A DNA stretch of 64,000 bases from assembly GCF_009906855.1 (NCBI RefSeq), contig NZ_CP047650.1, positions 1,984,001-2,048,000 of the forward strand, in the 5' to 3' direction. The stretch comes from Xylophilus rhododendri. Lineage in GTDB: Bacteria > Pseudomonadota > Gammaproteobacteria > Burkholderiales > Burkholderiaceae_C. A program made the translations under genes and the position numbers. Below the pieces are notes generated by a model that did not search any database, had not been told where the DNA came from, and worked only from the letters and a program-made list of their open reading frames with translations. This document shows, one piece after another, positions 23,681-44,919 of the stretch; position 1 is the first letter of the stretch; each line of letters begins with the position of its first letter.

Positions 23681-23701
23681 AAGCCGGCGCTCACAGTCGG
23701 G

Positions 23702-28050: not shown

Positions 28051-28051
28051 G

Positions 28052-29245
28052 TCAGCAGCCTCCCGATCCGCCCTGGTAGGCCGGCTGGCTGCCCTGCCAG
28101 ATGGCGTTGCGCAGCGGGATGGTGGTCTGGCTGACGACGTAGCGGTAGCGGTCCCAGTCGGCGATGCCGCTGCTCAGCGTGATGGGCACGGCGGTCGGAT
28201 TGAGCGTGCCGGTCGATGAACCATCCCAGACCGGCAGCGGCAGCACGGACTTGGCGGTCGATGCATTCGAGGTTCCGGTGTAGCTCAGCGTCTTGTCGTA
28301 CTGCTGCCCGCGCCCCACCACCGCCGCGCGGATGCCCACCACCCGCGCCCACTGGCAATACAGCGGAATGGTCACCGCCGCGACGCTGCCCGGCGTGGCC
28401 TGGTCGTAGGTGTCGACGATGCCGTCCATGGTCGAGGTGCTGCCGCTGATGCCCGAGGTGTCGCGTGCGTACTGCGCCCGCAGCGAGGCGATGTTGTTGG
28501 CCACCGGCACCCACACCGAGGGGGTGACGGTGGAGGTGTAGGTGCTCGATCCGCAGTTGTAGGCCAGGTAGTCGCAGACGGTCAGGTCGCCGTTGCGCAC
28601 CGCATAGGCCCGCACCGTGGGCGTGCCGCCCAGGTTGTAGACGATGCTGCCGCTGGGCAGGCCCGAACTGCCGTTGCTGACGGTGAGGACGGAGCCCGAG
28701 ACGCCGCCGACCGTGGCCAGCTGCAGCGCGCAGGTGGCGGCGCGTGTGGCCGGCGCCACCACCACCCGGTCGTTGGCGATGAAGGAGGCCGGTGTGGTGA
28801 CCACATAGGCGGTGGAGGCGGTGGCCGAGGTCACCGCATCGCCCTCGGACGGGCTGCCCGAGTTGCCGGAGACGACCAGCAGCGTGTCGGTATTGGCATC
28901 GCCCGCCGGCACCAGCGAGGTGGCCGGGTTGATGGTCACCGGCGCCAGCGGCAGCGTGACCGAGGCGCCGTCCGACGAGGTCGTATAGCTGACGCTGCAG
29001 CCGGAGATGTTGAAGGACTGCAGGCCGAGGCCGGCATGCTCCACATCCAGCGTCATCGCCCGCACCGCCGCCAGGCCGTTGAGCTGCGCGTCGCCGCCGG
29101 CCACCGCGATGCGCCGGCTGGTGGCCGTGTTGCCGAGCACCTGCAGGATCACCAGCACGCTGAACATGCCGATGATCACGGCGATCATCAGCTCCAGCAG
29201 GCTGAAGCCGCGCTGGCCGCGGGCAGGACGAGAACGCGGCTTCAT
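28052..29245 (-). CDS. pilW: Minor pilin PilW
   Basis: 397 residues. The prepilin signal is GQRGFSLLELMIAVIIGMF, with cleavage after Gly and Glu at mature position 5. The large globular domain is Ser/Thr/Val-rich. ATG at 29245 overlaps the pilV stop (ATGA), which fixes the start; a longer frame upstream is only the shadow of pilV. It belongs to the pilus tip complex. Confidence 0.92.
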   Translation of the reverse strand: MKPRSRPARGQRGFSLLELMIAVIIGMFSVLVILQVLGNTATSRRIAVAGGDAQLNGLAAVRAMTLDVEHAGLGLQSFNISGCSVSYTTSSDGASVTLPLAPVTINPATSLVPAGDANTDTLLVVSGNSGSPSEGDAVTSATASTAYVVTTPASFIANDRVVVAPATRAATCALQLATVGGVSGSVLTVSNGSSGLPSGSIVYNLGGTPTVRAYAVRNGDLTVCDYLAYNCGSSTYTSTVTPSVWVPVANNIASLRAQYARDTSGISGSTSTMDGIVDTYDQATPGSVAAVTIPLYCQWARVVGIRAAVVGRGQQYDKTLSYTGTSNASTAKSVLPLPVWDGSSTGTLNPTAVPITLSSGIADWDRYRYVVSQTTIPLRNAIWQGSQPAYQGGSGGC

Positions 29246-29742
29246 TTGATCTGCGCCGTTTCGATGTATTTGTGCGCCTGCGTCTCGCCCGGCGCCTGCC
29301 AGAAGACGGTGACGATGACATTGCTGCTGGCCACCGGGCTGCTGCCGCCGCCGGCCACCGGCGAGACCCTGACGGTGGGCAGGTTCGTGTTCGTGCTCAC
29401 GTTCACTCCGGGCAGGCCGGAGCCGGCCACCGCCGCCAGCCAGGGAGCGAAACCCGGGACGGTCTGCGAACTGGTGTTGTCGAAGTTGGCCGCCAGCGTG
29501 GCCGGCGTGCGGTCGCTCATCCACATGCGCGAGATGAGGTTCTTGGCCAGCAGCGAAGCAGTGGAGCGCGAGGCGGCCGCGCTCGTCTCCTGCACCGCGG
29601 CCGACTGCAGCCGGGCGATGCCGAGCACGCCGGTGGAAAAGATCAGCAGGGCGATGACCGCCTCGATGAGCGAGAAACCCCGCTGGCGCGCGCCGCGCGG
29701 ATGAACACGTGTCCCAAATGGAAGGCGGCGGCGGGGCTGCAT
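29242..29742 (-). CDS. pilV: Minor pilin PilV
   Basis: 166 residues. Prepilin signal ARQRGFSLIEAVIALLIFSTG with Glu5 (quoted as RQRGFSLIEAVIALLIF). It includes GVLGIARLQSAAVQ, typical of PilV. The start is ATG at 29742, 19 bp after fimT; an upstream frame extension overlaps fimT and is not likely to be used. It is translationally coupled to pilW. Confidence 0.92.
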   Translation of the reverse strand: MQPRRRLPFGTRVHPRGARQRGFSLIEAVIALLIFSTGVLGIARLQSAAVQETSAAASRSTASLLAKNLISRMWMSDRTPATLAANFDNTSSQTVPGFAPWLAAVAGSGLPGVNVSTNTNLPTVRVSPVAGGGSSPVASSNVIVTVFWQAPGETQAHKYIETAQIK

Positions 29743-29761
29743 GGTCGTCACGCTCCTGGTG

Positions 29762-30415
29762 TCAGCAGCGGGTGGGATCGGTGGCGCTGGTCTGGGCGGG
29801 GTCGCACATGCGGACCTCGCCGGCGGGGTAGACCACCAGGCGCAGGCAGCGGACCGTGCCGCTGCTGACGACGCAGGCCGAGCCCGGGAACTGGATGTCG
29901 ATCTGCGTCTTGGGCACCGGCGCCGCCACCGTCGGATTGAGGGTGGGCGAGAGCCGCCCGCTGGCATCGAAGGCCACCACGGCGGTCGCGGGCAAGGCGG
30001 CGATGCTCACCTTGCTGCTGGCCGCCGTCATCGGTCCCTTCTGGATGATGTTGGGCCCCGTGCCGCTGCCGGCCAGCGCGCCGCAGGCGCCCGCGGGCGA
30101 GACCGCCGAACCGATATTGACCACCCAGTACGGCCCCGAGGCCGACAGGGCGCAGCTGTTATCGAGCGTGGACACCAGCTGCATGCGCACCCGGGTGTTG
30201 CGCTTGAGGGCTTCGGAGCGGGCCAGCTGCAGGCCCTCGCGCAGGGTCTCGGCCGTGCTGCGCACCTGGTTGTTGCGCATCCAGTCGGAGAAGGACGGCA
30301 GGGCCAGGCCCAGCAGCACCGCCAGCATGCTGATGCCGACCAGCAGTTCGATCAGGCTGAAACCGCCTGGCGGGCCCGCCGCGCCCGGCCGACCGTGGAG
30401 ACGGTCGGGGCCCAT
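29762..30415 (-). CDS. fimT: Minor pilin FimT (GspH family)
   Basis: 217 residues. Prepilin signal PPGGFSLIELLVGISMLAVL with Glu5, followed by WMRNNQVRSTAETLREGLQ and LARSEALKRNTRV, the GspH/FimT signature. FimT proteins have been linked to DNA binding in natural transformation in some bacteria; that role is not shown here. The ATG at 30415 overlaps the pilE stop by one base (TGATG). Confidence 0.92.
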   Translation of the reverse strand: MGPDRLHGRPGAAGPPGGFSLIELLVGISMLAVLLGLALPSFSDWMRNNQVRSTAETLREGLQLARSEALKRNTRVRMQLVSTLDNSCALSASGPYWVVNIGSAVSPAGACGALAGSGTGPNIIQKGPMTAASSKVSIAALPATAVVAFDASGRLSPTLNPTVAAPVPKTQIDIQFPGSACVVSSGTVRCLRLVVYPAGEVRMCDPAQTSATDPTRC

Positions 30416-30906
30416 CAGCAGTTCCCGCCCTTGGTGGTCACCCAGCAGGCGGTGTTGCCGGTCCAGCCCGAAAGCCCGGTGACGGTGCTGGACATGTTGT
30501 TGGACTGGTCCACGACATAGCTGAACGCCGCCATGGGCCCGGTGGCGATGCCGGTGGCGGTGAGCGTGTACGCGGTCGCGCTGCTGGCCGAGCAGGTGAT
30601 GGTGAAGTACTTGAGACCGGTGGGCATCGCCACGCCGCAGGTCGTGCCGCTGACCGGGGTCGGCTGGTAACTCTTGGAGTCCTGGAACCACTGCTCCAGT
30701 CGCACCTGGGTGGAGCTCAGGTTGGAGGTCGCCTCGGGGATGCGCCCGCGCCGGATGTAGTCGGTATACGCGGGCAACGCGATCGCGCTCAGGATGCCGA
30801 TGATGGCCACCGTGACCATCACCTCGATCAGGGTGAAGCCGGCCGCCATGCGGCGCGGCGGGACGGAAGATCGGCAGGCAATTCGGCGACGCATGAGGAA
30901 TACCAA
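30415..30906 (-). CDS. pilE: Type IV pilin-like protein PilE
   Basis: 163 residues. Leader [20 protein letters not shown] with Glu5 after the cleavage Gly, then [19 protein letters not shown] as in PilE. It has a C-terminal disulfide pair ([10 protein letters not shown]). The TTG at 30906 is favoured because AGGAG lies 7 nt upstream; ATG at 30894 has no well-placed site. First gene of the operon pilE-fimT-pilV-pilW-pilX-pilY1. It is a minor pilin rather than the major PilA subunit, judging by context. Confidence 0.9.
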
Positions 30907-31099: not shown

Positions 31100-33100
31100 T
31101 TATTCAACAGAACTCACGTTTCCAGCGCCGAGGCTCCACAGCCGCAGGGCCATGTGGATCTCCAGCGCCCGGCTGGCGTTGCCCCAGTGGCCCAACAGCT
31201 CCTCCACGCTGTTCAGGCGCTGGCGCACCGTGTTGACATGGATGCCCATGCGCGCGGCCGTCAGCTTGGCGTTCTGGTTGCAGTCGAAATAGGCCAGCAG
31301 GGTGGAGGCCAGCTCCGAGCCCTTGCGGCGGTCGTGCGCGGTGACGGCGCCGATGGTGGCGTCGAGGAAGGCCGCGAGGCTGGCCTGGTCGTGGGTCTCG
31401 AACAGCACCGAATACAGCGCCATCTCGTTCTGGCCGACGATGCCGGATCGCATGCCCAGCCGCTCCAGCACCGAGAGCCCGCGCCGCAGGGCGGCATACA
31501 GCGGCGGAAACTCCGCCGCCGCCGCGACCGGGCGCGACAGCACGCCCTGCCAGGCCTGGCCCGATTCCCGCCGGGCGAAGGCCGAGAACTTCTCCACCAG
31601 CTCGTGCGCCCGCGGCGCGGCGCAGACCAGCACCAGCACACCATCGACCTCGTCGAGCACCTGCTGCTGCCAGGCCGGATCCGAGCGCAGCCGCCGGGCC
31701 CAGAAGGCCGCGCCGGGCTGCGTCGTCTGCGCCACCAGCAGGGACATGGGCAGTGACAGGTCGAGCCCGAAACGCTCGGCGCGTTCGCGCGCCAGCCGCG
31801 GCTCGCCCTGGCGCGGCGAGACCAGGGTGCGCAGCAGCGCGGACAGGTCGCGGTGCTTCTCCGCCTCCATGCGTTCGTGCGACAGCAGCACCACGCCGAT
31901 CACGCTCGAACTGCGCTCGAAGGTGCGCAGCGAGATGCCGCTCAGGTCCTCGTGCCGCAGCAGCAGCACCGCGCCCAGCAGCTCGTTGCCGCCGATCACC
32001 GCGATGGCCCGGCACCGCTCGCCCGCCTCCTCGAAAGCCAGGGCCGAGCGGCCGGCCTGCCGGCTCTCGCGCAGGGCGCGGGCGATGTCCGCGCTGTGCG
32101 GGCCGCTGGGCGAATAGGCCTGGGCGAGGCTGCCGGCGTAGCCGGGCGCGGACGCGCTGGCGATGGCATCTCCGGCTTCGTCCAGCACCAGCACGCTGCC
32201 GTGCAGCAACTGGGCGATGGAGGCGCAGAGTTCGCCCAGCGAGGCGCCGCGCGCCAGCAGCGAGGTCAGCTGCTCGTGCGCCTCGGCGGCACCCTGCACC
32301 TCGCGGGCATGGCGCTCCAGCGCGGCGCGGGCGGCGTCGGCGTCGGCCAGCGCGCTGCGGGCCTCGGCGAAGGCCCGGGCGTTCTCGATGGCCAGGGCCG
32401 CATGGGTGGCCAGGGTGCAGAGGATGGAGACGTTGAGCGCGGTGTGGGTGCGGTGGTAGCGGTCGGCCACGAACAGCAGGCCGACCACCCGGTCCTCGCA
32501 GATCAGCGGCGCGCCGACCAGGGCCGCCACGCCTTCGTCGCGGAAGGTGTCGTCCAGCGCCGGATCGTGCACGAAGCGGGTGTCGTGCAGGTAGTCGGGG
32601 GTGGCGAAGGGCAGGCGCGTGGCCATCACCACGCCGGCCACGCCGAGCTTGCGGCCGGCGGTCATCCGACCGGTGCGCTGGGAGATGGCGCCGTCGGCCA
32701 CGACCACGTGGAATTCGCCGCTTTGTGCATCGACCAAAGTCAGCCAGCACAGGTGCGCGCCCATCAGCTTGCGGGCGCGCTGGGCGATGGCTTCGAGCAG
32801 GCCCTGCAGGTCGCGGCGGCTCGACAGGTCTTGCGCGGACTCGATCACCGCCAGCATGCCGCGCTCGCGCTGCTCGTGCAGCTCCTGCCGGTTGCGCAGC
32901 GCCATGGCCATGCGCACCTGTTCGACCGCGCCGGGCTTGCCGGGCCAGGCGTCCGGCAGGGCCTCGACCTTCAGCAGGCGCGAGGCGAACTCGTCCGCCC
33001 CGGCGCTGCGGTGCAGCATGGCCAGCAGGTCGGGAGCGATGTCGGCGGCTTGCGGCGGTACCGCCTGCATCCGCCTTGCTTCGGGGGCCAGGGAAGACAT
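31100..33100 (-). CDS. GAF-domain PucR-type transcriptional regulator
   Basis: 666 residues. A GAF domain occupies about residues 90-245 (LEAIAQRARKLMGAHLCWLT, VGAPLICEDRVVGLLFVADR). A helical linker and a GGDEF-like/PucR middle region (about 300-560) follow. The C-terminal PucR helix-turn-helix is at about 600-650: LAYFDCNQNAKLTAARMGIH, VNTVRQRLNSVEELLG. ATG at 33100 is chosen over an extension of 53 codons that is poor in regulator-like sequence. It is divergent from the SDR/ABC/BKACE operon and likely controls it through the site at 33185-33226. The inducer is unknown; aromatic or small organic acids are typical for the family. Confidence 0.88.
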   Translation of the reverse strand: MSSLAPEARRMQAVPPQAADIAPDLLAMLHRSAGADEFASRLLKVEALPDAWPGKPGAVEQVRMAMALRNRQELHEQRERGMLAVIESAQDLSSRRDLQGLLEAIAQRARKLMGAHLCWLTLVDAQSGEFHVVVADGAISQRTGRMTAGRKLGVAGVVMATRLPFATPDYLHDTRFVHDPALDDTFRDEGVAALVGAPLICEDRVVGLLFVADRYHRTHTALNVSILCTLATHAALAIENARAFAEARSALADADAARAALERHAREVQGAAEAHEQLTSLLARGASLGELCASIAQLLHGSVLVLDEAGDAIASASAPGYAGSLAQAYSPSGPHSADIARALRESRQAGRSALAFEEAGERCRAIAVIGGNELLGAVLLLRHEDLSGISLRTFERSSSVIGVVLLSHERMEAEKHRDLSALLRTLVSPRQGEPRLARERAERFGLDLSLPMSLLVAQTTQPGAAFWARRLRSDPAWQQQVLDEVDGVLVLVCAAPRAHELVEKFSAFARRESGQAWQGVLSRPVAAAAEFPPLYAALRRGLSVLERLGMRSGIVGQNEMALYSVLFETHDQASLAAFLDATIGAVTAHDRRKGSELASTLLAYFDCNQNAKLTAARMGIHVNTVRQRLNSVEELLGHWGNASRALEIHMALRLWSLGAGNVSSVE

Positions 33101-33184
33101 GAGGCGGCAAAGGCTAGCAGAACATCGCCATGCGGACATGGGCGCAAGCCCTGAGGCGGGCGCCCATCGGCCGCAGTGCGCGCA

Positions 33185-33226
33185 GCACATCGGCACCCGG
33201 CCTGCGGTGTGCGCGGCACACATAGG
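33185..33226. promoter_or_regulatory. Three-box regulatory site, copy 1
   Basis: GCACATCGGC (33185-33194), CGGTGTG (33205-33211) and CACATAGG (33219-33226). The same three blocks with identical spacing (N10, N7) occur at 40103-40144. Read as half-sites, they are CACATCGG, its inverted relative CACACCG, and CACATAGG. It lies 56 bp before the SDR start and 84 bp before the divergent regulator start. Confidence 0.7.
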
Positions 33227-33282
33227 CGCGCCGGCCGGTCTTGCGGACACTGGCGCCATCCGTCCACGCCCTGACTGCCTCC

Positions 33283-34074
33283 ATGAGCATCCTCGATTCC
33301 CTGCGACCCCTGCCCGGCCTGCGTGTCCTCGTCACCGCGGGCGCCTCCGGCATCGGCGCGGCGATCGCGCTGGCCTTCCGCGAGACCGGCGCCCGGGTGC
33401 ATGTCTGCGACATCGACCGGGCCGCGCTCGACCGGCTGAACCGGCAGGCGCCCGAGATCGGATCGAGCATGGCCGATGCCTCGCTGCCCGACGATGTGGA
33501 CCTGGTCTTCGACGACGTGCAGGGCACGCTCGGCGGGCTGGACGTGCTGGTCAACAACGTCGGTGTGGCCGGGCCCACCGGCGCGATCCAGGACCTGCGC
33601 CGCGGCGACTGGGAGCGCACCGTGGCGGTCAACCTCAACAGCCAGTTCTACTTCGCCCAGCGCGCGGTGCCGCTGCTGCGCCAGTCCACGCAGAATCCCT
33701 CGCTGATCGCCATGAGTTCGGTGGCGGGCCGGCTCGGCTATCCGCTGCGCACGCCGTATGCGGCGACCAAGTGGGCGGTGGTCGGGCTGATGAAGTCGCT
33801 GGCCATCGAACTCGGGCCGCACGGCGTGCGGGTCAATGCCATCCTGCCGGGCACGGTGGAGGGCGAACGCATGGACGGCGTGATCGGCGCCCGCGCCGCC
33901 GAGCAGGGCGTGTCGGCCCAGGCGATGCGGGCGCAGTACCTGGACAAGATCTCGCTGCGCCGCATGGTCACGCCCGCCGACGTGGCGGCCATGGCACTCT
34001 TTCTGAGTTCGCGCGCGGCGCGCAACATCACCGGACAGGCGATCAGCGTGGACGGGAACATGGAATACCTCTGA
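33283..34074 (+). CDS. SDR-family dehydrogenase
   Basis: 263 residues. Classical short-chain dehydrogenase: VTAGASGIGAAIAL for the cofactor site with Asp at CDID (favouring NAD), NNVGVAG, catalytic Ser in SSVAGRLG, and Tyr-Lys in PYAATKWA. The C-terminus GQAISVDGNMEYL is standard. First gene of an operon with an ABC transporter and BKACE. I infer oxidation of a beta-hydroxy acid to the beta-keto acid used by BKACE. No strong ribosome-binding site is visible before ATG 33283. Confidence 0.9.
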   Translation: MSILDSLRPLPGLRVLVTAGASGIGAAIALAFRETGARVHVCDIDRAALDRLNRQAPEIGSSMADASLPDDVDLVFDDVQGTLGGLDVLVNNVGVAGPTGAIQDLRRGDWERTVAVNLNSQFYFAQRAVPLLRQSTQNPSLIAMSSVAGRLGYPLRTPYAATKWAVVGLMKSLAIELGPHGVRVNAILPGTVEGERMDGVIGARAAEQGVSAQAMRAQYLDKISLRRMVTPADVAAMALFLSSRAARNITGQAISVDGNMEYL

Positions 34075-34119
34075 GCGGGCCGCCCGCCGGATTCGAGCAA
34101 CAAATCAAAGGAGACACCC

Positions 34120-35373
34120 ATGCCACTGAAGACAAGCCTCGCGCGCCGCCTGCGGCCCGCCCCTCTCGCCGCCCTGCTGCTGTGCGCCGCCGCTTCGGCC
34201 GCGCCGGTGAAGATCGGCCTGGTCGAAACCCTCTCCGGCCCGCAGGCCTCCTCCGGCCAGGCCTACCGCAGCGCGGTGCGTTACGCGATCGACCAGATCA
34301 ACGCGGCCGGCGGCTGGAACGGCGAGCCGGTGCAGCTGCTGGAGTACGACAACCAGGGCGGCCCGGCCGGCGCCGCCGACAAACTCAAGGCGGCCGCCGC
34401 CGACGGGGTGCAGATGGTGGTGCAGGGCGCCTCCTCGGCCATCGGCGGGCAGATCACCGAGGACGTGCGCAAGTACAACCTGCGCAATCCCGGCAAGGAG
34501 ATGCTCTACTTCAACATGGGCGCCGAGGCGCTGGAGCTGACCGGCGAGAAGTGCAACTTCCACCACTTCCGCTTCGCCGGCGATGCGCAGGTGCGCACCA
34601 AGGCACTGGTCGGCGCGATGAAGCAGGCCCATGCCCTGGGCACCCGGGTGTATTCCATCAACCAGAACTACTCCTGGGGCCAGGACATGGAGCGCGCCAT
34701 CTCCGACAACGCCGCCGCCGGCGGCTACCAGGTGGTGGAGAAGACCCTGCACGACGTCAACAAGGTGCAGGACTTCGCGCCCTACGTGGCCAAGATCGCC
34801 GCGTCCAGGGCCGACTCGGTGCTCACCGGCAACTGGTCCAACGACCTGCTGCTGCTGATGAAGGCCTCGAAGTCCGCCGGCCTGAAGGTGCGTTTCGGCA
34901 CGGTGTATCTGGACCAGCCGGGCAACCTGGCCAATGCCGGCGACCTGGCCATCGGCCACTTCGTGGTGCACACCTTCAACCCGGAATCGGGCGGCGCCGA
35001 CGGCGCGCGTTTCATGGCCGACTACCAGGCCAGGACCGGTCATGCGCCCACCTTCATCGAGCCGCAGACCGTCTACGGCATGGCCATGGTGGCCGATGCC
35101 CTCAAACGCACGCCGCCCGAGAACGGCATGCTCAACGTAAACGCCTTCGCCAAGGCGCTGGAGAACACCCGCATCAAGTCGCCGATGGGCGAGATGAGCA
35201 TGCGCGCGGCCGACCACCAGGTGCAGATGCCGATGGTGGTCTCCACCGTCGCCAGGGATGCGCGCTACAAGGCCGACGGCACCGACATGGGTTTCAAGCC
35301 GGTGAAGCTGTTCACCGCGGCCGAGGCCTCCACGCCGGCCCAGGCCAGCTGCGTCATGAAGCGGCCGGGCTGA
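34120..35373 (+). CDS. Branched-chain amino acid-type ABC substrate-binding protein
   Basis: 417 residues. The signal peptide ends at about residue 27 (LLLCAAASAA). A Peripla_BP_6 fold follows: VKIGLVETLSGPQASSGQAY, INAAGGWNGEPVQLLEYDN and NYSWGQDMERA. AAAGGAG lies 9 nt before the ATG. Same family as the LivJ-type protein at 54.3 kb but clearly different, so another ligand is likely; the context suggests an organic acid. It is followed by its own permeases and ATPases. Confidence 0.92.
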   Translation: MPLKTSLARRLRPAPLAALLLCAAASAAPVKIGLVETLSGPQASSGQAYRSAVRYAIDQINAAGGWNGEPVQLLEYDNQGGPAGAADKLKAAAADGVQMVVQGASSAIGGQITEDVRKYNLRNPGKEMLYFNMGAEALELTGEKCNFHHFRFAGDAQVRTKALVGAMKQAHALGTRVYSINQNYSWGQDMERAISDNAAAGGYQVVEKTLHDVNKVQDFAPYVAKIAASRADSVLTGNWSNDLLLLMKASKSAGLKVRFGTVYLDQPGNLANAGDLAIGHFVVHTFNPESGGADGARFMADYQARTGHAPTFIEPQTVYGMAMVADALKRTPPENGMLNVNAFAKALENTRIKSPMGEMSMRAADHQVQMPMVVSTVARDARYKADGTDMGFKPVKLFTAAEASTPAQASCVMKRPG

Positions 35374-35386
35374 GCGGCGCCGCGGC

Positions 35387-36328
35387 ATGGACCAGTTCCT
35401 CGTCTCCCTGATGAACGGCATCGTCTACGGCCTGCTGCTGTTCATGGTGTCGGCCGGGCTCACCCTCATCTTCGGGATGATGGGTGTGCTGAATTTCGCC
35501 CATGCCTCCTTCTACATGCTGGGCGCCTACTTCGCCTACCTGCTGCAGGGCTGGCTGGGCTTCTGGGGGGCGATCCTGGTGTCGCCGCTGCTGGTGGGGC
35601 TGCTGGGCGTGGTGGTGGAGCGTTTCTTCCTGCGCCGGGTGCACCACCACGGCCATGCGCACGAGCTGCTGCTGACCTTCGGCCTGTCCTTCATCGTGGC
35701 CGAGTCGATCAAGCTCTTCTTCGGCAACTATCCGGTGGACTACCGCATTCCCGCCGCGCTCGACGTGCCGGCCTTCGCCATCGGCGGCGCCAGCTATCCG
35801 GCCTACCGGCTGCTGATGGGCGGCATCGCGATCGCGATGTTCCTGCTGATCTACCTGCTGCTGACGCGCACCCGCGTCGGCATCGTGGTGCGCTCTGCCA
35901 TCTACCGGCCGCGCATGGCCGAGGCCCTGGGGCACAACGTGCCGCTGGTGTTCATGGGGGTGTTCGGCGTGGGTGCGGCGCTGGCCGGCCTGGCCGGTGC
36001 GGTGGCCGGCGCCTTCTACACCACCAACCCGAACATGGCGCTGGAGCTGGGGGTGATCGTCTTCGTGGTGGTGGTGGTCGGCGGGCTGGGCTCGCTGGGC
36101 GGGGCGATGCTGGCATCGCTGCTGATCGGCGTGGTCACCTCGCTGGCGGTGAGTGTGGACCGCAGCCTGGCGGACCTCTTCGCGCTCGTCGGCGCGGGCG
36201 ACTGGGCGCGCGATGTGGGCGGGTTGATGACACTGAAGATCTCCAGCCTCTCCGCCACCCTGCCCTTCGCGCTGATGCTGCTGATCCTGCTGGTGCGGCC
36301 GCGCGGCCTGATGGGCGAAAAAGGCTGA
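35387..36328 (+). CDS. ABC transporter permease, LivH type
   Basis: 313 residues, about eight membrane helices. LivH hallmarks: MNGIVYGLLLFMVSAGLTLI, FGMMGVLNFAHASFYMLGAY and the coupling region GLGSLGGAMLASLLIG. It starts 13 bp after the binding-protein gene and is 4 bp from the LivM-type gene. Imports the ligand of the preceding binding protein across the inner membrane. Confidence 0.92.
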   Translation: MDQFLVSLMNGIVYGLLLFMVSAGLTLIFGMMGVLNFAHASFYMLGAYFAYLLQGWLGFWGAILVSPLLVGLLGVVVERFFLRRVHHHGHAHELLLTFGLSFIVAESIKLFFGNYPVDYRIPAALDVPAFAIGGASYPAYRLLMGGIAIAMFLLIYLLLTRTRVGIVVRSAIYRPRMAEALGHNVPLVFMGVFGVGAALAGLAGAVAGAFYTTNPNMALELGVIVFVVVVVGGLGSLGGAMLASLLIGVVTSLAVSVDRSLADLFALVGAGDWARDVGGLMTLKISSLSATLPFALMLLILLVRPRGLMGEKG

Positions 36329-36332
36329 ACCG

Positions 36333-37598
36333 ATGAAGACCGTCTCCTTTCTCGTCGGCGCTGTCGTCGCGCTGCTGCTCGCCCTGCCCTGGCTGCTGTC
36401 GCAGGGCCTGCTCAACGCGGCCGTGCAGATGCTGATCGCCGCGCTGTTCGCCAGCGCCTACAACCTGCTGTGCGGCCAGGCCGGCATGCTGTCCTTCGGC
36501 CATGCGGCCTATTTCGGCGTGGGCGCCTTCGCGACGGTGCATGCGATGAACGCCGTCGGCGGCGCGGGCCTGCTGCCGACGCCGCTGCTGCCGCTGGCCG
36601 GCGCGCTGGTCGGGCTGCTGGTGGGCGCGGTGGCGGGCTGGTTCGCCACCCAGCGCAGCGGCACCTACTTCGCCATGATCACCCTGGCCATCGCCGAGCT
36701 GGTGCATTCGCTGGCGCCGCACTTCAAGGGGCTGTTCGGCGGCGAAGCCGGCATCTCCTCCATGCGCATGCCGGCCTGGGGCCTGGATTTCGGCTCGACC
36801 ACGCAGGTGTACTACCTGACGCTGGGCTGGACCCTGCTCTGCCTGGCCCTGCTCTTCTTCTTCACCCGCACGCCGATGGGCCGGCTCACCCTGGGCCTGC
36901 GCGAGAACAGCCACCGCCTGCGTTTCCTGGGCTACCAGGTGCACGGCCTGGGCATGGCGGTGTTCGCCATCTCGGCCATGTTCTCCGGCGTGGCGGGGGC
37001 GCTGCAGGTGCTGTCCAACGAGTCGGCGAACTATGTGCTGTTCGACCCGGGACTGTCGGCGGCGGTGATCCTGCACAGCTATATCGGCGGCATCGGCATG
37101 TTCCTGGGACCGGCGCTGGGGGCGGCGATCATGACCTTCTTCGGCTATGCGGTGTCGGACCTGACGCAGTCCTGGCTGCTCTACCAGGGCATCGTGTTCG
37201 TGCTGGTGATGATGTTCCTGCCGGCCGGGCTGGCCAGCCTGCCGGGCCGCGCGCTGGGGCTGGCGCGGCGCTTCGGCATGGCGCGGCTGGTGCCGCTGCT
37301 GCTGCTGGGCCTGGGCGCGGCGCTGCTGCTGGCCATGGGCGCCGTCTTCCTGGTGGAGCTGCTGCAGCGCCTCTTCTCGCAGGACTACCGGGCCGCCCTG
37401 CGCCTGCATCCGGGCGATGCCTGGCCGGCGGTGGCGCTGCTGTCGCGCCAGTGGCTGCCGGCATCGCCGGCGACCTGGTCGCTGCCGCTGGCGCTGCTGG
37501 CCGGCGGCGGGCTGCTGACATGGCTGGCGCGGCGGCGGCGTGCCGCGCTCGACGAGCCGGATCGCACCGTGGCCGCGGGCGGGGAGGTGGCGGCATGA
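36333..37598 (+). CDS. ABC transporter permease, LivM type, with C-terminal extension
   Basis: 421 residues. Residues 1-300 are a standard LivM: LLCGQAGMLSFGHAAYFGVG and a coupling loop IGGIGMFLGPALGAA. After FVLVMMFLPAGLASL the protein continues about 110 residues with two further hydrophobic segments (LVPLLLLGLGAALLLAMGAV and LPLALLAGGGLLTWL), beyond the usual LivM end. Its stop overlaps the next ATG (ATGA). Confidence 0.9.
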   Translation: MKTVSFLVGAVVALLLALPWLLSQGLLNAAVQMLIAALFASAYNLLCGQAGMLSFGHAAYFGVGAFATVHAMNAVGGAGLLPTPLLPLAGALVGLLVGAVAGWFATQRSGTYFAMITLAIAELVHSLAPHFKGLFGGEAGISSMRMPAWGLDFGSTTQVYYLTLGWTLLCLALLFFFTRTPMGRLTLGLRENSHRLRFLGYQVHGLGMAVFAISAMFSGVAGALQVLSNESANYVLFDPGLSAAVILHSYIGGIGMFLGPALGAAIMTFFGYAVSDLTQSWLLYQGIVFVLVMMFLPAGLASLPGRALGLARRFGMARLVPLLLLGLGAALLLAMGAVFLVELLQRLFSQDYRAALRLHPGDAWPAVALLSRQWLPASPATWSLPLALLAGGGLLTWLARRRRAALDEPDRTVAAGGEVAA

Positions 37599-38353
37599 GC
37601 AGCGACACCATCCTCAGCGTTCGCGGCCTGCGCAAGTCCTTCGGCGCGACCGAGATCATGCGGGGCGTGGACCTGGACCTGCTGGCCGGCGAGCGCCACG
37701 CGCTGATCGGCCCCAACGGCGCCGGCAAGTCCACCCTGTTCCATCTGCTCTCGGGCCAGCTGGCGCCGAGCGGCGGCGAGATCCGCTTCGACGGGCGCGA
37801 GATCGGCGGGCGTTCGCCGCAGGCGATCAACCGGCTCGGCCTGGCGCGCTCCTTTCAGATCACCAACATCTTCCCCAGGCTCAGCGTGTTCGAGAACATC
37901 CGCCTGGCGGCGATGCGGCCGCACGGCCTGCAGTACGCCTTCTGGAAGCGCATAGACCGCGACCGGCGCATCCGCGCGGAGACCGAGCGCCTGCTGGAGC
38001 TGGTGCGGCTGGCACCCCGGCGCTCGACCCTGGCCGGCGAGATGGCCTACTCCGAACAGCGCTCGCTGGAGATCGCCATGACACTCGCCTCGGACCCCCG
38101 CCTGATCCTGCTGGACGAGCCCATGGCCGGCATGTCCACCGAGGAGACGCACTACACGGCAGCGCTGATCCGCGAGGTCACGCAGGGCCGCACGCTGCTG
38201 ATCGTGGAGCACGACATGGACGTAGTGTTCTCGCTCGGCGACCGCATCAGCGTGCTGGTCTACGGCCAGGTGATCGCCACCGGCACGCCCGACGAGATCC
38301 GCGGCAATGCGGCGGTGCAGGAGGCCTACCTGGGCCAGGAGGCCCACGCATGA
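37595..38353 (+). CDS. ABC transporter ATPase, LivG type
   Basis: 252 residues. Walker A GPNGAGKST, Q-loop RSFQITNIF, signature MAYSEQRSLEIAM (the LivG form of LSGGQ), Walker B LILLDEPMAGM and switch His in VEHDMD. It energises the LivH/LivM-type permeases at 35.4-37.6 kb. Start and stop overlap its neighbours by 4 bp. Confidence 0.93.
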   Translation: MSSDTILSVRGLRKSFGATEIMRGVDLDLLAGERHALIGPNGAGKSTLFHLLSGQLAPSGGEIRFDGREIGGRSPQAINRLGLARSFQITNIFPRLSVFENIRLAAMRPHGLQYAFWKRIDRDRRIRAETERLLELVRLAPRRSTLAGEMAYSEQRSLEIAMTLASDPRLILLDEPMAGMSTEETHYTAALIREVTQGRTLLIVEHDMDVVFSLGDRISVLVYGQVIATGTPDEIRGNAAVQEAYLGQEAHA

Positions 38354-39084
38354 GCGCTGCCGGCAAGAACGACCAGGGCAGCCTGCTGGAGGTCGCCGAA
38401 CTGCATGCCCACTACGGCAAGAGCCACATCCTGCACGGCGTGAACCTGCGGGTGGGCGAACGCGAGGTGGTGAGCCTGCTGGGCCGCAACGGCTCCGGCC
38501 GCTCGACTACGATGAAGGCCATCATGGGCCTGGTGGCGCCCTCCGCCGGCCAGGTGCGGCTGCGCGGCCGGGAGCTGGCCGGACAGCGGCCCTACGCCAT
38601 CTGCCGCGCCGGCATCGCCTATGTTCCCGAGGAGCGCGAGGTGTTCGCCAACCTCACGGTGGAGGAGAACCTGCGCATGGGCGAGCAGCCGGCGCCCGCG
38701 GGCGCGCACCGCTGGCGCATGGCCGACATGTTCGACTACTTCCCCCGGCTCAAGGAGCGGCGCGGCACCCGCGCGGGCAGCCTGTCGGGCGGCGAGCAGC
38801 AGATGCTGACCATCTGCCGCTCGCTGCTGGGCAATCCGCGCCTGATCCTGATCGACGAACCCACCGAAGGCCTGGCGCCGAAGATCGTGGCGCAGGTCGG
38901 CGAATGCATACGCGACATGCATGCCAAGGGCGTGTCGGTGCTGCTGGTCGAGCAGAAGCTGGCGATCGCGCTGAAGGTGGCCACACGCGTGTGTGTGATG
39001 GGCCATGGGCGCATCGTGTTCGAAGGCTCGCCGCAGGCGCTGGCGGCGGACCAGGCGCTGGTCGCCCAGTGGCTGGCGGTGTGA
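38350..39084 (+). CDS. ABC transporter ATPase, LivF type, with Walker A Arg
   Basis: 244 residues. The order of motifs is normal: Q-loop YVPEEREVF, signature LSGGEQQM, Walker B LILIDEPTEGLAP, and switch region VLLVEQKLAIAL, where Gln is normal for LivF. The Walker A is LGRNGSGRST: the invariant Lys is Arg51 (codon cgc). The LivF at 58.1 kb has the normal GANGAGKST. ATP hydrolysis in this subunit may therefore be weak, leaving the LivG partner as the main motor. This last point is inference. Confidence 0.92.
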   Translation: MSAAGKNDQGSLLEVAELHAHYGKSHILHGVNLRVGEREVVSLLGRNGSGRSTTMKAIMGLVAPSAGQVRLRGRELAGQRPYAICRAGIAYVPEEREVFANLTVEENLRMGEQPAPAGAHRWRMADMFDYFPRLKERRGTRAGSLSGGEQQMLTICRSLLGNPRLILIDEPTEGLAPKIVAQVGECIRDMHAKGVSVLLVEQKLAIALKVATRVCVMGHGRIVFEGSPQALAADQALVAQWLAV

Positions 39085-39130
39085 GCCGGCCGCTTCTTTT
39101 TCACTTTCCTTTTCGATCCACGAGACCCCC

Positions 39131-40072
39131 ATGGCAAGCACTTCCGACAAGGTCATCATCTCCTGCGCGGTCACCGGCTCGGTCCATACGCCGACCATGT
39201 CCGAATACCTGCCGCTGACCCCCGACGAGATCGCCGAACAGGCGATCGCGGCGGCCGAGGCCGGCGCGGCCATCCTGCACCTGCATGCACGCGATCCGCG
39301 CGACGGCCGGCCCTCGTCCGACCCCGCCGTGTTCGACCAGTTCGTGCCGCGCATCCGCGACGCCACCGACGCGGTCATCAACATCACCACCGGCGGCAGC
39401 ACCCGCATGACGCTGGAGGAGCGCCTGGCCTATCCGCTGCAGGCCAAACCCGAGATGTGCTCGCTCAACATGGGCTCGATGAACTTCTCCATCCACCCGG
39501 CGGCGCGGCGCGTGTCGGAATGGAAATACGACTGGGAGCAGGCCCATGTGGAGGGCATGGAAGACCTGATCTTCCGCAACACCTTCCGCGACATCAAACA
39601 CATCCTGAAGGTGCTGGGCGAGGACTGCGGCACCCGCTTCGAGTTCGAGTGCTACGACCTGGGCCACCTCTACAACCTGGCGCATTTCGTGGACGAGGGG
39701 CTGATCCAGGGGCCGCTCTTCATCCAGAGCATCTACGGCATCCTCGGCGGCATGGGCCCCGACCCGGAGAACCTGGTCACCATGCGCAGCACGGCCGACC
39801 GGCTGTTCGGCCGCGACGGCTACCGCTTCTCCATCCTGGGCGCCGGCCGCCACCAGATGCGGCTGCTGACCATGGGCGCGGTGATGGGCGGCAATGTGCG
39901 GGTGGGCCTGGAGGACAGCCTCTATCTCGGCAAGGGCCAGCTCGCGAAGACCTGCGCCGAGCAGGTGCAGAAGATCCGCCGCATCCTGGAGGAACTCTCG
40001 CTGGAGATCGCCACGCCCGACGAGGCCCGCGCCACGCTGGGCCTGAAGGGCCGGCACGCCGTGGGCTTCTGA
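39131..40072 (+). CDS. BKACE (DUF849) beta-keto acid cleavage enzyme
   Basis: 313 residues. The family cleaves beta-keto acids with acetyl-CoA, giving acetoacetate (or a variant) and a CoA thioester. Zinc ligands are seen as ILHLHARDP (His50, His52) and GLED (Glu261), with the family's NITTGGS and NMGSMNF. The TIM-barrel length is normal. It lies 46 bp after the LivF-type gene and is the last gene of the SDR/ABC operon. The SDR in the operon would provide the keto acid. The exact substrate is not predictable from what I see. Confidence 0.93.
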   Translation: MASTSDKVIISCAVTGSVHTPTMSEYLPLTPDEIAEQAIAAAEAGAAILHLHARDPRDGRPSSDPAVFDQFVPRIRDATDAVINITTGGSTRMTLEERLAYPLQAKPEMCSLNMGSMNFSIHPAARRVSEWKYDWEQAHVEGMEDLIFRNTFRDIKHILKVLGEDCGTRFEFECYDLGHLYNLAHFVDEGLIQGPLFIQSIYGILGGMGPDPENLVTMRSTADRLFGRDGYRFSILGAGRHQMRLLTMGAVMGGNVRVGLEDSLYLGKGQLAKTCAEQVQKIRRILEELSLEIATPDEARATLGLKGRHAVGF

Positions 40073-40102
40073 GCCCGGCCGCGGCCGCACGGTAGCCGCC
40101 CC

Positions 40103-40144
40103 GCACATCGGCGACGGCGGATCGGTGTGGCGCCTGCACATTGG
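40103..40144. promoter_or_regulatory. Three-box regulatory site, copy 2
   Basis: GCACATCGGC (40103-40112), CGGTGTG (40123-40129) and CACATTGG (40137-40144), all offset by exactly 6918 bp from copy 1. The bases between the blocks differ (2 of 17 match). It ends 59 bp before the esterase start. Confidence 0.7.
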
Positions 40145-40203
40145 TTGGCGGACCGGGCGGCGGGAAACTGCCCTGCCCCCATTACTAAGAAGGCAGGAGA
40201 CAT

Positions 40204-41955
40204 ATGAAAACCGGCATCCACAGACTGGCGCTGCTCGCCACCGCCTGCGCCAGCACCAGCGCGGTCTTGCTCGCATGCGGCGGCGGCGGCAATACCACCG
40301 TCGCACCGGCCGCTGCCGCGCCGGACGGCCCCGGCATCGTGGCGCCCGGCCAGCAGGCCACCCTCAGTTGCGCGCAGCTGCAGGGCATGGCGATCGCCGC
40401 GGCGGCCATCGGCCTGCCCACCTCCGGCGCGACCGTGACGGCCACCCGCTCGGTGGCGGCCAGCGGCAGCGGCGCCGCCGCGCTGCCGGCCTACTGCGAG
40501 GTCTCCGGCCAGATCGCGCCGGTCGACCCCACCGCGCCCAACATCCTCTTCCAGGTCGGCCTGCCGGAGACCTGGAACCGGAAGGCGGTGATGCTCGGCG
40601 GCGGCGGCTTCGACGGCACCATCCCCAGCATCAAGGGCAATGTGCCCAACGGCCCGGCCGACCAGCTGACGCCGCTGGGCCGCGGCTATGTGACATTCGC
40701 CAGCGACTCCGGCCACCAGGCCAATGCGCTGGGCTCGCAGGACGGCCGCTTCGGGCTCAGCGACGAGGCGGTGCGCAACTTCGGCGGCGATGTGCTGAAG
40801 AAGACCCGCGACACCGCCATGGCCATCGTCCAGGCGCGTTATGCCGCCAGCCCGGTGAAGTCCTATTTCGCCGGCGGCTCCACCGGCGGGCGCGAGGCGC
40901 TGGCCGCCATCCAGCGCTGGCCGGCCGACTGGGACGGCGCCATCGCCTGGTACCCCGCCTGGAACGACGCCGCCGCGCTGCTCGGCGGCCATCGCATGAG
41001 CCGCGCGCTGGCGCAGCCCGGCGCCTATCCCAGTGCCGCCAAGCGCCAGCTGCTCTACCAGGCGGCGATGGAGGCCTGCGATGCGCTGGACGGCGCCAGC
41101 GACGGGCTGATCGCCAACCAGAACCTGTGCAACGCGCGCTTCGATCCGGCCACCGCCACCGTGGGAGGCGCTCCGCTGCGCTGCGCCGGCGGCGCCGACA
41201 CCGGCGACGGCTGCCTGTCGGATGCGCAGATCGCCGCGATGAACACCATCAACACGGCCACCCGCTTCAACTTCACCCTGGCCAGCGGCGAGACCGGCTA
41301 CCCGGGCTACAACATCTGGGGCGCCGACCCGGGCATCAGCACCCGCACATCGGCGCTGGAGCCCACCGTGACCTTCCTGGCCTTCGGCACGGTGCAGCCC
41401 GCGATGCCGATGCCCGCCGGCGCGCCCTACATCAGCACCTTGACGGACCAGTGGATCAAGTACTTCGTCACCCGCGACGCCAGCTACGACTCGCTGTCGC
41501 TGGACCCGGAGAACCCGGGCGCCTGGGCCGGCCGCATCAGCGCGCTGAGCACCCAGCTCGACACCAGCACCGACATCTCGGCCTTCCAGGCGCGCGGCGG
41601 CAAGCTGCTGCTGGCCCACGGCCTGGCCGACGTGCTGGTGAGCACCCGGGCCACCGAGCAGTACTACCAGCGCCTGCAGTCGGCCATGGGACCGTCGCGG
41701 GTCGATTCCTTCGTGCGCTACTACGAGGTGGCGGGGCTGGGCCATGCGGTCAGCAGCGTGTTCAACGCGACCTGGGATTCGCTGACCGCGCTGGACCAGT
41801 GGTCCTCCACCGGCAGCGCGCCCAGCGGGCAGGTCACGACCGATACGGCCGGCGTGCCGGGCCGCACGCGGCCGCTCTGCGACTATCCGAAATGGCCGCA
41901 GTACCGGGGTTCGGGGGATGTGAACCTGGCCGCCTCGTTCCAGTGCGTGGACTGA
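40204..41955 (+). CDS. Tannase/feruloyl esterase-family lipoprotein
   Basis: 583 residues. A lipoprotein signal ends at LLAC (Cys25). The tannase fold is seen in GRGYVTFASDSGHQ, nucleophile YFAGGSTGGREAL (Ser226), Asp476 in HGLADVLV, His514 in GLGHAVSS, and the C-terminal RTRPLCDYPKWPQY. In the family the residue before Ser and the one after His are cysteines joined by a disulfide (CS-D-HC motif). Here they are Gly225 and Ala515. The gene has AGGAG before its ATG and shares a regulatory site with the SDR/BKACE operon. It probably hydrolyses an ester at the cell surface. Confidence 0.88.
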   Translation: MKTGIHRLALLATACASTSAVLLACGGGGNTTVAPAAAAPDGPGIVAPGQQATLSCAQLQGMAIAAAAIGLPTSGATVTATRSVAASGSGAAALPAYCEVSGQIAPVDPTAPNILFQVGLPETWNRKAVMLGGGGFDGTIPSIKGNVPNGPADQLTPLGRGYVTFASDSGHQANALGSQDGRFGLSDEAVRNFGGDVLKKTRDTAMAIVQARYAASPVKSYFAGGSTGGREALAAIQRWPADWDGAIAWYPAWNDAAALLGGHRMSRALAQPGAYPSAAKRQLLYQAAMEACDALDGASDGLIANQNLCNARFDPATATVGGAPLRCAGGADTGDGCLSDAQIAAMNTINTATRFNFTLASGETGYPGYNIWGADPGISTRTSALEPTVTFLAFGTVQPAMPMPAGAPYISTLTDQWIKYFVTRDASYDSLSLDPENPGAWAGRISALSTQLDTSTDISAFQARGGKLLLAHGLADVLVSTRATEQYYQRLQSAMGPSRVDSFVRYYEVAGLGHAVSSVFNATWDSLTALDQWSSTGSAPSGQVTTDTAGVPGRTRPLCDYPKWPQYRGSGDVNLAASFQCVD

Positions 41956-43005: not shown

Positions 43006-43851
43006 ATGAAGAACGTCATCGTCGTCATCGGGGCCGGTTCGATCGGCCAGGCCATCGCACGGCGGGTGGGCGCCGGCAGACACGTATTGCTCGCGGACCT
43101 GGACACCGGCCATGCCGACGCCGCCGCCCGGGTGCTGGACGAGGCCGGCTTCGAGGTGAGCACCACGGCGGTCGATGTGTCCTCGCGCGCATCGGTCGAG
43201 GCGCTGGCGGCGCTGGCCACCGGCCTCGGCGACATCGTCGGCGTGATCCATGCGGCGGGGGTCTCGCCGACACAGGCGGCGCCCGCCACCATCCTGGCGG
43301 TCGATCTGTACGGCACGGCACTGGTGCTAGAGGCTTTCGGCATGGTCATCGCACGCGGAGGCTCCTGCGTGGTGATCGCCTCGCAGTCGGGCCATCGCAT
43401 GGGCGCCCTGACAGCCGAGCAGGACCGTGCCCTGGCGACCACGCCGGCCGACGCGCTGCTGGCGCTGCCGATGCTGCAGCCCGGGCAGGTCACCGATGCG
43501 CTGCATGCCTACCAGCTGTCCAAGCGCGGCAACTCGCTGCGGGTGAAGGCCGAGGCGGTCCGCTGGGGCAAGCGGGGCGCTCGTGTCAACACCATCAGCC
43601 CCGGCATCATCATGACGCCGCTGGCCAAGGACGAGCTTTCCGGCCCGCGCGGCCCCGGCTACCGCCGCATGCTGGAGCTGTCCCCGGCCGGCAGGGCCGG
43701 CACACCGGACGAGGTTGGCGCGGTGGGCGCCTTGCTGATGGGCCCCGACGGCGCCTTCATCACCGGCAGCGACTTCCTGATGGACGGCGGAGTCACCGCC
43801 TCGTACTTCTACGGCGAACTGGCGCCGCCACAGGCCACGGCCGCCGCGTGA
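43006..43851 (+). CDS. SDR-family oxidoreductase
   Basis: 281 residues. NAD(P)-binding VVIGAGSIGQAIARRVG, Ser in VIASQSGHRMG, Tyr-Lys in LHAYQLSKRGN, and NTISPGIIMTPLA. The Rossmann start GAGSIG lacks the usual TGxxxGxG spacing, as in a divergent subgroup of SDRs. AGGAG precedes ATG 43006. It is divergent from the aldo/keto reductase and followed on the same strand by a LysR-type regulator. Confidence 0.9.
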   Translation: MKNVIVVIGAGSIGQAIARRVGAGRHVLLADLDTGHADAAARVLDEAGFEVSTTAVDVSSRASVEALAALATGLGDIVGVIHAAGVSPTQAAPATILAVDLYGTALVLEAFGMVIARGGSCVVIASQSGHRMGALTAEQDRALATTPADALLALPMLQPGQVTDALHAYQLSKRGNSLRVKAEAVRWGKRGARVNTISPGIIMTPLAKDELSGPRGPGYRRMLELSPAGRAGTPDEVGAVGALLMGPDGAFITGSDFLMDGGVTASYFYGELAPPQATAAA

Positions 43852-43947
43852 AGCGGGCGTGCCATACCCGCCCGGCTGGTCACCAGACCCCGATTGATAC
43901 ATCATGGTTTGCTTGTCGATCAACCCGGGCCAGAGGCTCTTGAAACC

Positions 43948-44919
43948 GTGGCCTTCAATGAACTCCGAGCCATCGCCACCTTCGTCAAGGCAGCGGAACT
44001 GGGCAGCCTGCGCAAGGCGGCCGCCGCGCAGGGCGTGACGCCCCAGGCGGCCAGCCAGTCGCTGAGCCAGCTGGAGTCGCATCTGGGGGTGCGGCTGTTC
44101 CATCGCACCACCCGCAAGCTGAGCCTGACGGAGGAAGGCGAGGCATTTCTCTCGGCCGCCAAGCCGGGGCTGCACACGCTGGAGCGTGCCCTGCACGGCG
44201 CCCGCCAGGGCAGCGATGGCGTGGCCGGGCCGCTGCGCATCGTGGGTCCGCGCTCGACCATGCTGCAGGTGCTGCCGCCGGTCCTGCAGGAGTTCTGCCA
44301 GCTCCATCCGGAGGTGCGGCCGGATGTCCAGCTCGACGACATGCTGGGCAACTGGGTGGAGAGCCGGGTGGATGTGGGATTCCGGGCCGGCAGCCCGCCC
44401 GACAACGGCGTGATCGCCCGCCGCCTGATGCCGCTGCAGCTCATCGTCTGCGCATCCCCGGCCTACCTGCGGGCGCATGGCGCGCCGGCCAGCATCGACG
44501 ACCTGGCCCATCACCGCTGCAGCGGCTTCCGGTCGCCGCAGATACCGAACGTCCGCGCCTGGGACTTCCAGGTGGGCGACGAGATCGTCTCGCGCACCAT
44601 TCCCGCCGTGTTCACCACCAACGACCTGGACGTGGAAGCCAGCGCCGTGGTGGCCGGAGAAGTCATCGGCCAGATCGACGGCGTGACGGCCACCCCGCTG
44701 GTGCGCAGCGGCGCGCTGGTGCCGGTGCTGGGCCAGCACATGGTCGACCACCTGGGGCTCTACATCTATTACGGAAGCCGGGTGGCGCTGCCCCGGCGGG
44801 TACGTGCCTTCATCGACCTGGCGGTGGAACGCCTGGTGGACAACGACCGGTTCTTCCTGCATCCGCACGAACTGCAGCCCGGGCTGGCCGCGAAGAAACC
44901 AAGGCGCCGGTCGGCGTGA
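43948..44919 (+). CDS. LysR-type transcriptional regulator
   Basis: 323 residues from the GTG at 43948. The winged helix-turn-helix is at residues 1-60: FNELRAIATFVKAAELGSLR, KAAAAQGVTPQAASQSLSQL. The effector domain (about 90-300) is of the LysR substrate-binding type. An earlier in-frame TTG at 43894 would add 18 residues not found at LysR N-termini. TTGAT (43894-43898) and ATCAA (43919-43923) upstream may be an autoregulatory site. It likely controls the neighbouring SDR/reductase pair. Confidence 0.88.
   Translation: MAFNELRAIATFVKAAELGSLRKAAAAQGVTPQAASQSLSQLESHLGVRLFHRTTRKLSLTEEGEAFLSAAKPGLHTLERALHGARQGSDGVAGPLRIVGPRSTMLQVLPPVLQEFCQLHPEVRPDVQLDDMLGNWVESRVDVGFRAGSPPDNGVIARRLMPLQLIVCASPAYLRAHGAPASIDDLAHHRCSGFRSPQIPNVRAWDFQVGDEIVSRTIPAVFTTNDLDVEASAVVAGEVIGQIDGVTATPLVRSGALVPVLGQHMVDHLGLYIYYGSRVALPRRVRAFIDLAVERLVDNDRFFLHPHELQPGLAAKKPRRRSA

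Follow-up and report, generated by a model that had tools for sequence, protein, structure and literature searches.

The spaced site in two promoter regions

The window analyzed here is a stretch of 64,000 nucleotides (nt) of Xylophilus rhododendri (NZ_CP047650.1), and all window coordinates count from its first letter. It carries an operon whose first gene encodes an SDR-family dehydrogenase, followed by the gene for the periplasmic substrate-binding protein of an ABC transporter, by genes at 35387-39084 which we take to encode the permease and ATPase of this transporter, and by the gene for a beta-keto acid cleavage enzyme (BKACE). Next comes a gene for a hydrolase of the tannase/feruloyl-esterase family, and a regulator gene with GAF and PucR-type helix-turn-helix (HTH) domains is transcribed divergently from the operon. 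The subject of this work is a site of three spaced blocks that stands both between the regulator and the operon and ahead of the tannase gene.

A sequence-only reading of this DNA had described the site as occurring twice with identical spacing, and our scan of the window confirmed it: the three-block pattern matched without mismatch at 33185-33226 and 40103-40144, at a common offset of 6918 bp, and 0 matches are expected according to 100 dinucleotide-preserving shuffles of the window. The distances of 56 and 59 bp from the last box to the start codons of the SDR gene (33283) and the tannase gene (40204) were also found to be correct. Between the two copies, the boxes agree at 10/10, 7/7, and 7/8 positions and the inner spacers at 2/10 and 0/7, which on recounting gives the 2 of 17 reported before. 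A search of all 5.87 Mb of the genome with a slightly looser pattern, allowing up to three mismatches, returned both window copies without mismatch and one further place with three (C1:4076540); at two mismatches or fewer, only the window copies were found. The reversed pattern, used as a control, gave 0 matches in the genome at the same tolerance of three mismatches. This count of chance occurrences, which the earlier reading had called for, shows that the site is not scattered.

A fourth block, overlooked in that reading, lies 19 nt past box 3 in both copies, again at an offset of 6918, and is a hexamer resembling a -10 element. If the end of box 3, T(A/T)GGnn, is read as a -35 element, the spacer to the hexamer is 17 bp in both copies, and the hexamer has the A at position 2 and the T at position 6 of a sigma-70-type promoter, at a distance from the TTG or TAG of box 3 that falls within the usual 16 to 18 bp. 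Transcription would then start about 25 and about 28 nt ahead of the ATG of the SDR and tannase genes, respectively. The pattern extended to four blocks found the same two places only in the X. rhododendri genome. Coordinates of the boxes, hexamers, and genes are collected in Table 1.

Table 1. Features of the two sites and of the genes around them in the window
Feature	Position	Strand	Remarks
Divergent regulator gene	31100..33100	-	GAF, weak GGDEF-like, and C-terminal PucR-type HTH (HTH_30) domains; proposed binder and activator
Box 0, CGCAGTG (degenerate fourth half-site)	33172..33178	+	7 nt ahead of box 1; copy 1 only
Box 1, CACATCGG, SDR operon promoter	33186..33193	+	Position conserved in relatives
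Box 2, CGGTGTG, SDR promoter	33205..33211	+	Left arm of proximal inverted repeat
Box 3, CACATAGG, SDR promoter	33219..33226	+	Right arm; overlaps predicted -35 TAGGCG 33223-33228
-10-like hexamer GACACT, SDR promoter	33246..33251	+	17 bp past predicted -35; spacing kept in relatives
SDR-family dehydrogenase gene	33283..34074	+	First gene of target operon; PF13561, 1.5e-55
Substrate-binding protein gene	34120..35373	+	Periplasmic, ABC transporter; PF13458, 3.8e-74
BKACE gene	39131..40072	+	Last gene ahead of second site; PF05853, 9.6e-108
Box 1, CACATCGG, tannase promoter	40104..40111	+	
Box 2, CGGTGTG, tannase promoter	40123..40129	+	
Box 3, CACATTGG, tannase promoter	40137..40144	+	Overlaps predicted -35 TTGGTT 40141-40146
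-10-like hexamer GAAACT, tannase promoter	40164..40169	+	Spacing kept in relatives
Tannase/feruloyl-esterase-family hydrolase gene	40204..41955	+	Second target; PF07519, 2.5e-109

Conservation of the layout and half-site architecture

Upstream regions were compared among relatives of the regulator. A search with two peptide patterns only, which was not exhaustive, found 58 loci with such relatives among 84,980 species genomes, 46 of them proteobacterial (mostly Burkholderiales, with one Marinomonas) and 12 distant and actinobacterial; relatives occur in Variovorax, Bordetella, Achromobacter, Noviherbaspirillum, Ramlibacter, Azohydromonas, Piscinibacter, and Marinomonas. The spacing scans used 43 of the 58 loci, leaving out L087 and L102, in which the locus begins at the match, L091, whose upstream region reads N, and the 12 actinobacterial loci (L096-L100 and L103-L109). 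NACATNG and GANACT stand at a single spacing in 31/43 regions; of all other spacings between 0 and 59, only one, derived from box 1, occurs (14/43). The gap between RTGTB and NACATWG peaks at 7 nt (29/43 regions; next best gaps, 7/43), and AYATC precedes ACATWG by 28 nt in 21/43 regions, with 3 for the next best distance. As looked for in a PucR-type operator, an inverted repeat is found near the predicted -35 of a divergent or adjacent catabolic promoter.

When the dyad was picked blind to the hexamer, 41 of the 43 regions were scored, L090 and L092 having fallen under the dyad threshold; the dyad of L092 is too close to the gene for the scan range and is visible when the upstream region is read. 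A.A.T was found exactly 19 nt from the dyad in 37/41 regions, as against at most 2/41 at each of 47 other distances. As for the four regions without it, part of the L065 site falls beyond the sequence that was used, L093 is a distant paralogue, and in L080 and L082, read by eye, another dyad outscored the one with a 6-nt spacer that bears the hexamer. The most variable letters of the hexamer across the related regions are those at positions 1, 3, and 5, as would be expected of a weak -10 element. Box 3 reads TTG in 12/13 tannase promoters and TAG in 31/40 SDR promoters, so that the two kinds of promoter differ in the quality of their would-be -35. The boxes appear to be part of a rigid promoter unit together with the -10-like hexamer.

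Counts over whole genomes covered those of 41 of the 43 loci (the paralogues L092 and L093 were left out), and the four-block pattern had been derived from the upstream regions of many of these same genomes. With up to three mismatches, it gave 69 matches in 38/41 genomes, as against a single match of the reversed pattern and three matches, in 3/41 genomes, when the gap between boxes 1 and 2 was lengthened by one base; 58 of the 69, in 35 genomes, fall inside the loci around the regulator. A relative from the same genus (G399) has the layout with three mismatches. The three-box pattern alone, at up to two mismatches, was found in 15/399 genomes of the family (X. rhododendri included) and its reversed control in 2. 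Among these matches, L004, L006, and L007 lie beside the regulator, L016 and L017 ahead of a tannase gene, and L018 ahead of a carboxylesterase gene, and L008 and L012-L015 represent a single similar word that recurs in five genomes, which we read as chance.

Architecturally, boxes 2 and 3 are the arms of an inverted repeat, RTGTG-N7-CACATWG, with half-site centers 11 bp, or one helical turn, apart. Exactly 33 bp (about three turns) upstream of box 3, box 1 repeats it in the same direction, and therefore the half-sites lie on one face of the helix. In the copy ahead of the SDR gene, box 0 and box 1 make up a stretch, 33172-33193, which differs from the dyad by two mismatches; the copy ahead of the tannase gene has no box 0. 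In the alignment of site letters, those fixed by the pattern are inflated, and only columns that it leaves unspecified were taken as evidence. Outside the letters of the search pattern, an exact GTG stands 11 bp ahead of box 1 in 11 of 45 sequence clusters (next best offset, 4), while a looser 3-of-4 test is less clear, with 16 clusters against 14 at a neighboring offset. We regard this as modest evidence for a fourth half-site. We therefore describe the array as a tandem of two inverted repeats at a distance of 33 bp: the proximal repeat is strong, and the distal repeat has decayed, in many cases so far that only its right half is left. What the earlier reading called triple half-sites is better taken as a strong repeat on the proximal side with a degenerate repeat distal to it. 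Such a site suggests a route by which a two-repeat operator may decay to three half-sites with its spacing unchanged.

The divergent regulator and the genes that accompany the site

A Pfam scan identified in the divergent regulator a C-terminal HTH (PF13556; 3.6e-16, 59.1 bits against a cut-off of 27, residues 597-654), a GAF domain (PF01590; 3.8e-14), and a weak GGDEF-like match (PF17853; 1.5e-4) which at 22.4 bits stays just under its cut-off of 24.5; no IclR domain was found in it. Many PucR-type regulators have a GGDEF-like domain ahead of the HTH. The N-terminal PucR domain PF07905 gave no match in the regulator up to E 0.001, and the GAF domain stands in its place. Since PF07905 defines the PucR family according to the accessible text of PMC7652997, the protein is not a PF07905 member; it shares the PucR-type HTH and probably the way of working. 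Its earlier designation as a PucR-type regulator therefore holds for the HTH and fails for the N-terminal domain. Sequence matches to solved structures (E <= 0.01) were confined to the region around the GAF domain. The regulator profile was built from 17 of 120 listed relatives (alignment A1).

Co-occurrence was assessed in 200 genomes of the family, with thresholds of E <= 1e-60 for the regulator and E <= 1e-100 for BKACE and tannase. The regulator is present in 11/200 genomes, that of X. rhododendri included, the pattern in 15/200, and the reversed pattern in 6/200. The pattern occurs in ten of the 11 genomes with the regulator and in 5 of the 189 without it (Fisher p = 1.4e-12), and these five matches without the regulator are all at three mismatches; at two mismatches or fewer, the figures are 7/11 and 0/189. 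The eleventh regulator genome, G078, has the dyad and the hexamer without mismatch ahead of the SDR gene, with box 1 decayed. BKACE occurs in 27/200 genomes, of which 19 lack the regulator and none of these (0/19) has the pattern; tannase occurs in 19/200, and one (G164) of the 10 without the regulator has it. The pattern is present with the regulator in G053, G068, and G199, though BKACE is absent there. The presence of the site is tied more closely to the regulator than to the target genes. In five genomes outside the derivation of the pattern (G056, G119, G162, G182, and G199), there are seven matches, each adjoining the regulator or a tannase orthologue. The cluster of G199 is rearranged: its matches at C2:983185-983249 and 985313-985377 flank the regulator, and the second stands ahead of the tannase orthologue.

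The related genomes, whose scanning had also been proposed, show the site conserved beside orthologous SDR and tannase genes. The 65 sites found in the retrieved sequences and the window precede SDR genes (40), tannase genes (13), genes for the substrate-binding protein (5), and other genes (7), so that 58/65 stand ahead of orthologues of the first three. The seven others comprise four before a gene read as AraC family (L070, L071, L094, and L095; at about 16.1-16.3 kb), two before type-B carboxylesterases (L052 and L071), and one at a contig edge (L058). The AraC-family reading comes from Pfam for L071, from resemblance for L095, and from position and length for L070 and L094; a site ahead of such a gene suggests a small regulatory cascade. 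At L052 (G215 C11, about 899545), in Variovorax, the site before the type-B carboxylesterase lies on a contig other than that of the regulator, and similar matches were seen in G425, G427, and G428. The carboxylesterase of L052 is probably an unlinked member of the regulon.

Proposed control, its alternatives, and known systems

We consider it likely that both copies of the site are operator-promoters of a regulon run by the divergent GAF/PucR-HTH regulator, which would activate from a position overlapping the -35. The regulator, probably a dimer with its DNA-reading helices one turn apart, would bind the inverted repeat of boxes 2 and 3, and box 1, as the better-kept half of a degenerate second repeat, probably takes a second dimer or subunit. 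For the PucR-type MabR, the two recognition helices were judged best suited to adjacent major grooves one turn apart, in the part of PMC11617747 available to us. With box 3 overlapping the -35 of a promoter whose weak -10 (nAnAnT) would follow exactly 17 bp on, the proximal repeat would position the regulator over the -35, and the bound regulator could recruit RNA polymerase in a class II type of activation. An effector, probably a pathway intermediate and perhaps sensed by the GAF domain, would turn the regulator on. The targets would be the ester hydrolase, the ABC transporter, the SDR dehydrogenase, and BKACE, and the switch very probably governs the uptake and breakdown of an ester-derived food source. 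A fuller version of this proposal is possible, though we judge it somewhat less likely than not: half-sites phase-locked at 0, 22, and 33 bp, with a decayed fourth at -11, and fixed to the -35 and -10 would form the first operator defined for proteobacterial GAF/PucR-HTH regulators, bound by an oligomer that tolerates one lost half-site, and promoter strength would be set by the decay of the distal repeat and by TTG or TAG in box 3.

Several observations weigh against activation through this site by the divergent regulator. Box 1 is weak in G078 and in Bordetella and Achromobacter (L064, L073, L085, and L089), where the proximal repeat is a near-perfect CTATGTG-N7-CACATAG, so that box 1 may be dispensable. 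In L066, L078, L080, L082, and L110 (Noviherbaspirillum), the spacer of the dyad is 6 nt, not 7, with the 19 nt to the hexamer kept; L090, whose regulator is 57% identical, shows no site; and the paralogues L092 and L093 (38-39%) have the dyad without box 1, L093 also without the hexamer. Eleven of the 69 four-block matches lie outside the regulator loci, and some of them may be chance. Four of these (G425-G428) resemble the carboxylesterase site, the gene having been identified for L052 only; the remaining seven belong to G431, G434, G440, G445, G449, G451, and G464, of which the last three, all Noviherbaspirillum, have their sole match away from the regulator, possibly by chance. Single matches with three mismatches are weak because the reversed control matched in 6/200 genomes, and G068, G162, and G182 rest on such a match, though one that adjoins the regulator. 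In G164, a three-mismatch match (L157 11618-11682) precedes a tannase relative by roughly 140-180 bp, counted from the start inferred for that gene, and the surrounding 18 kb contain no regulator relative; the match may be chance, a leftover, or the site of a more distant regulator. The genome of G056 has the regulator, yet its second SDR/tannase/transporter/BKACE cluster (L158, C1:3992000-4010000) is without the site, and no relative of the regulator was found within 18 kb around it; this cluster may be controlled in some other way within that cell.

The same site and regulator could also work by repression, with the dyad over the -35 blocking the polymerase until an inducer frees it. The overlap of box 3 with the predicted -35 would suit steric repression as well, and Bacillus subtilis PucR is said to be both activator and repressor (PMC7652997, as far as its accessible text goes). 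However, the remaining PucR-type regulators named alongside it there are activators, and the poor -10, joined at the SDR genes by a mostly poor -35, fits dependence on an activator, which leaves repression an unlikely mode. Less probable still is that the boxes are bound by some other regulator, whether unlinked or the LysR-type protein encoded at 43927-44919, and that the GAF/PucR-HTH gene is merely divergent or itself a target. Such a binder would agree with a site that sits between divergent genes, with a LysR-family gene nearby, and with the possible site in G164, where no recognized regulator lies in 18 kb; against it, the site tracks the regulator over the 200 genomes, also in the three without BKACE, and nearly vanishes where BKACE or tannase occurs without the regulator. 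The LysR-type protein was rejected as the binder given that site presence follows the GAF/PucR-HTH gene.

We rejected two further explanations, to either of which we attach a negligible probability. One is a recent duplication or a chance likeness of GC-rich promoter DNA: spacer 3 (9/19) and the upstream flank (34/85) do share some bases between the copies, about as many as the G+C content would give, but the inner spacers hardly match, shuffling predicts no second copy, and both the cross-genus conservation with fixed spacing and the co-occurrence with the regulator contradict it. The earlier view that selection acts on the boxes, rather than a recent duplication being at work, is upheld by the spacers, the shuffles, and this conservation. 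The other places the elements in RNA or translation rather than in a DNA operator. Its attraction is that the hexamers are only 31 and 34 bp ahead of the start codons, whereas among relatives the distance from site to gene varies and the internal spacing is constant, as for an operator-promoter.

The general kind of site is known from GabR and from the IclR family, judging by the accessible parts of PMC7652997 and PMC8222616. GabR, a PucR-type activator of Corynebacterium glutamicum, binds two 21-bp inverted repeats directly upstream of the -35, within -87 to -23 of the gabTDP promoter, and both repeats are needed for strong binding (PMC7652997). Like the window regulator, it has a PucR-type HTH, is divergently encoded, and adjoins a catabolic operon. 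In the accessible text it is described as a local regulator without a GGDEF-like domain (PMC7652997), whereas the system of the window has a GAF domain, several target promoters, a predicted -35 overlap, a different sequence, and, instead of two 21-bp repeats, one strong repeat with a half-site or degenerate repeat 33 bp upstream. AdeR and PutR of B. subtilis, cited in PMC7652997, are PucR-type activators acting on inverted repeats of 24 and 17 bp; these are single repeats, from Bacillus, and the accessible text of that source mentions no distal half-site. Three-box operators are described for IclR-family regulators such as PcaU, PobR, and HmgR and are predicted in 32 orthologous groups (available part of PMC8222616), so that sites of three boxes are not unheard of. 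As in the window site, their three half-sites alternate in direction and make up a palindrome with an additional direct repeat outside it; they differ in sequence and in regulator family, the window regulator having no IclR domain; the 33-bp spacing of its direct copies is also wider, as judged from the printed consensuses (PMC8222616). No description of this operator, regulator group, regulon, or geometry was found in our searches of the open-licence PubMed Central literature. The site gives an uncharacterized group of regulators a candidate binding site, regulon, and promoter geometry that can be tested at once.

As to the substrate, BKACE of the window scores 517 bits against a cut-off of 430 on NF053538, the model named for 3,5-dioxohexanoate:acetyl-CoA acetone transferase. 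In the phloroglucinol pathway of Clostridium scatologenes, according to the part of PMC10470551 available to us, the dehydrogenase TfD and the BKACE-family TAL make and cleave 3,5-dioxohexanoate, and the pair of a dehydrogenase and a BKACE in the window resembles them. The association of the tannase-family hydrolase, and in some genomes of an unlinked type-B carboxylesterase, with a transporter and with a cleavage enzyme of the 3,5-dioxohexanoate type leaves fewer substrates to be considered. The hydrolase is putatively secreted, judging from its N-terminus only. Downstream of the tannase gene lie a second SDR gene (43006-43851) and the LysR-type regulator gene (43927-44919); there is no four-block match ahead of either gene. 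A plasmid search with the intergenic region as the query gave nothing at E 1e-5. Just beyond the regulator, on the minus strand at 23691-30906, are open reading frames that we take to resemble a type IV pilus minor pilin and PilY1-like cluster.

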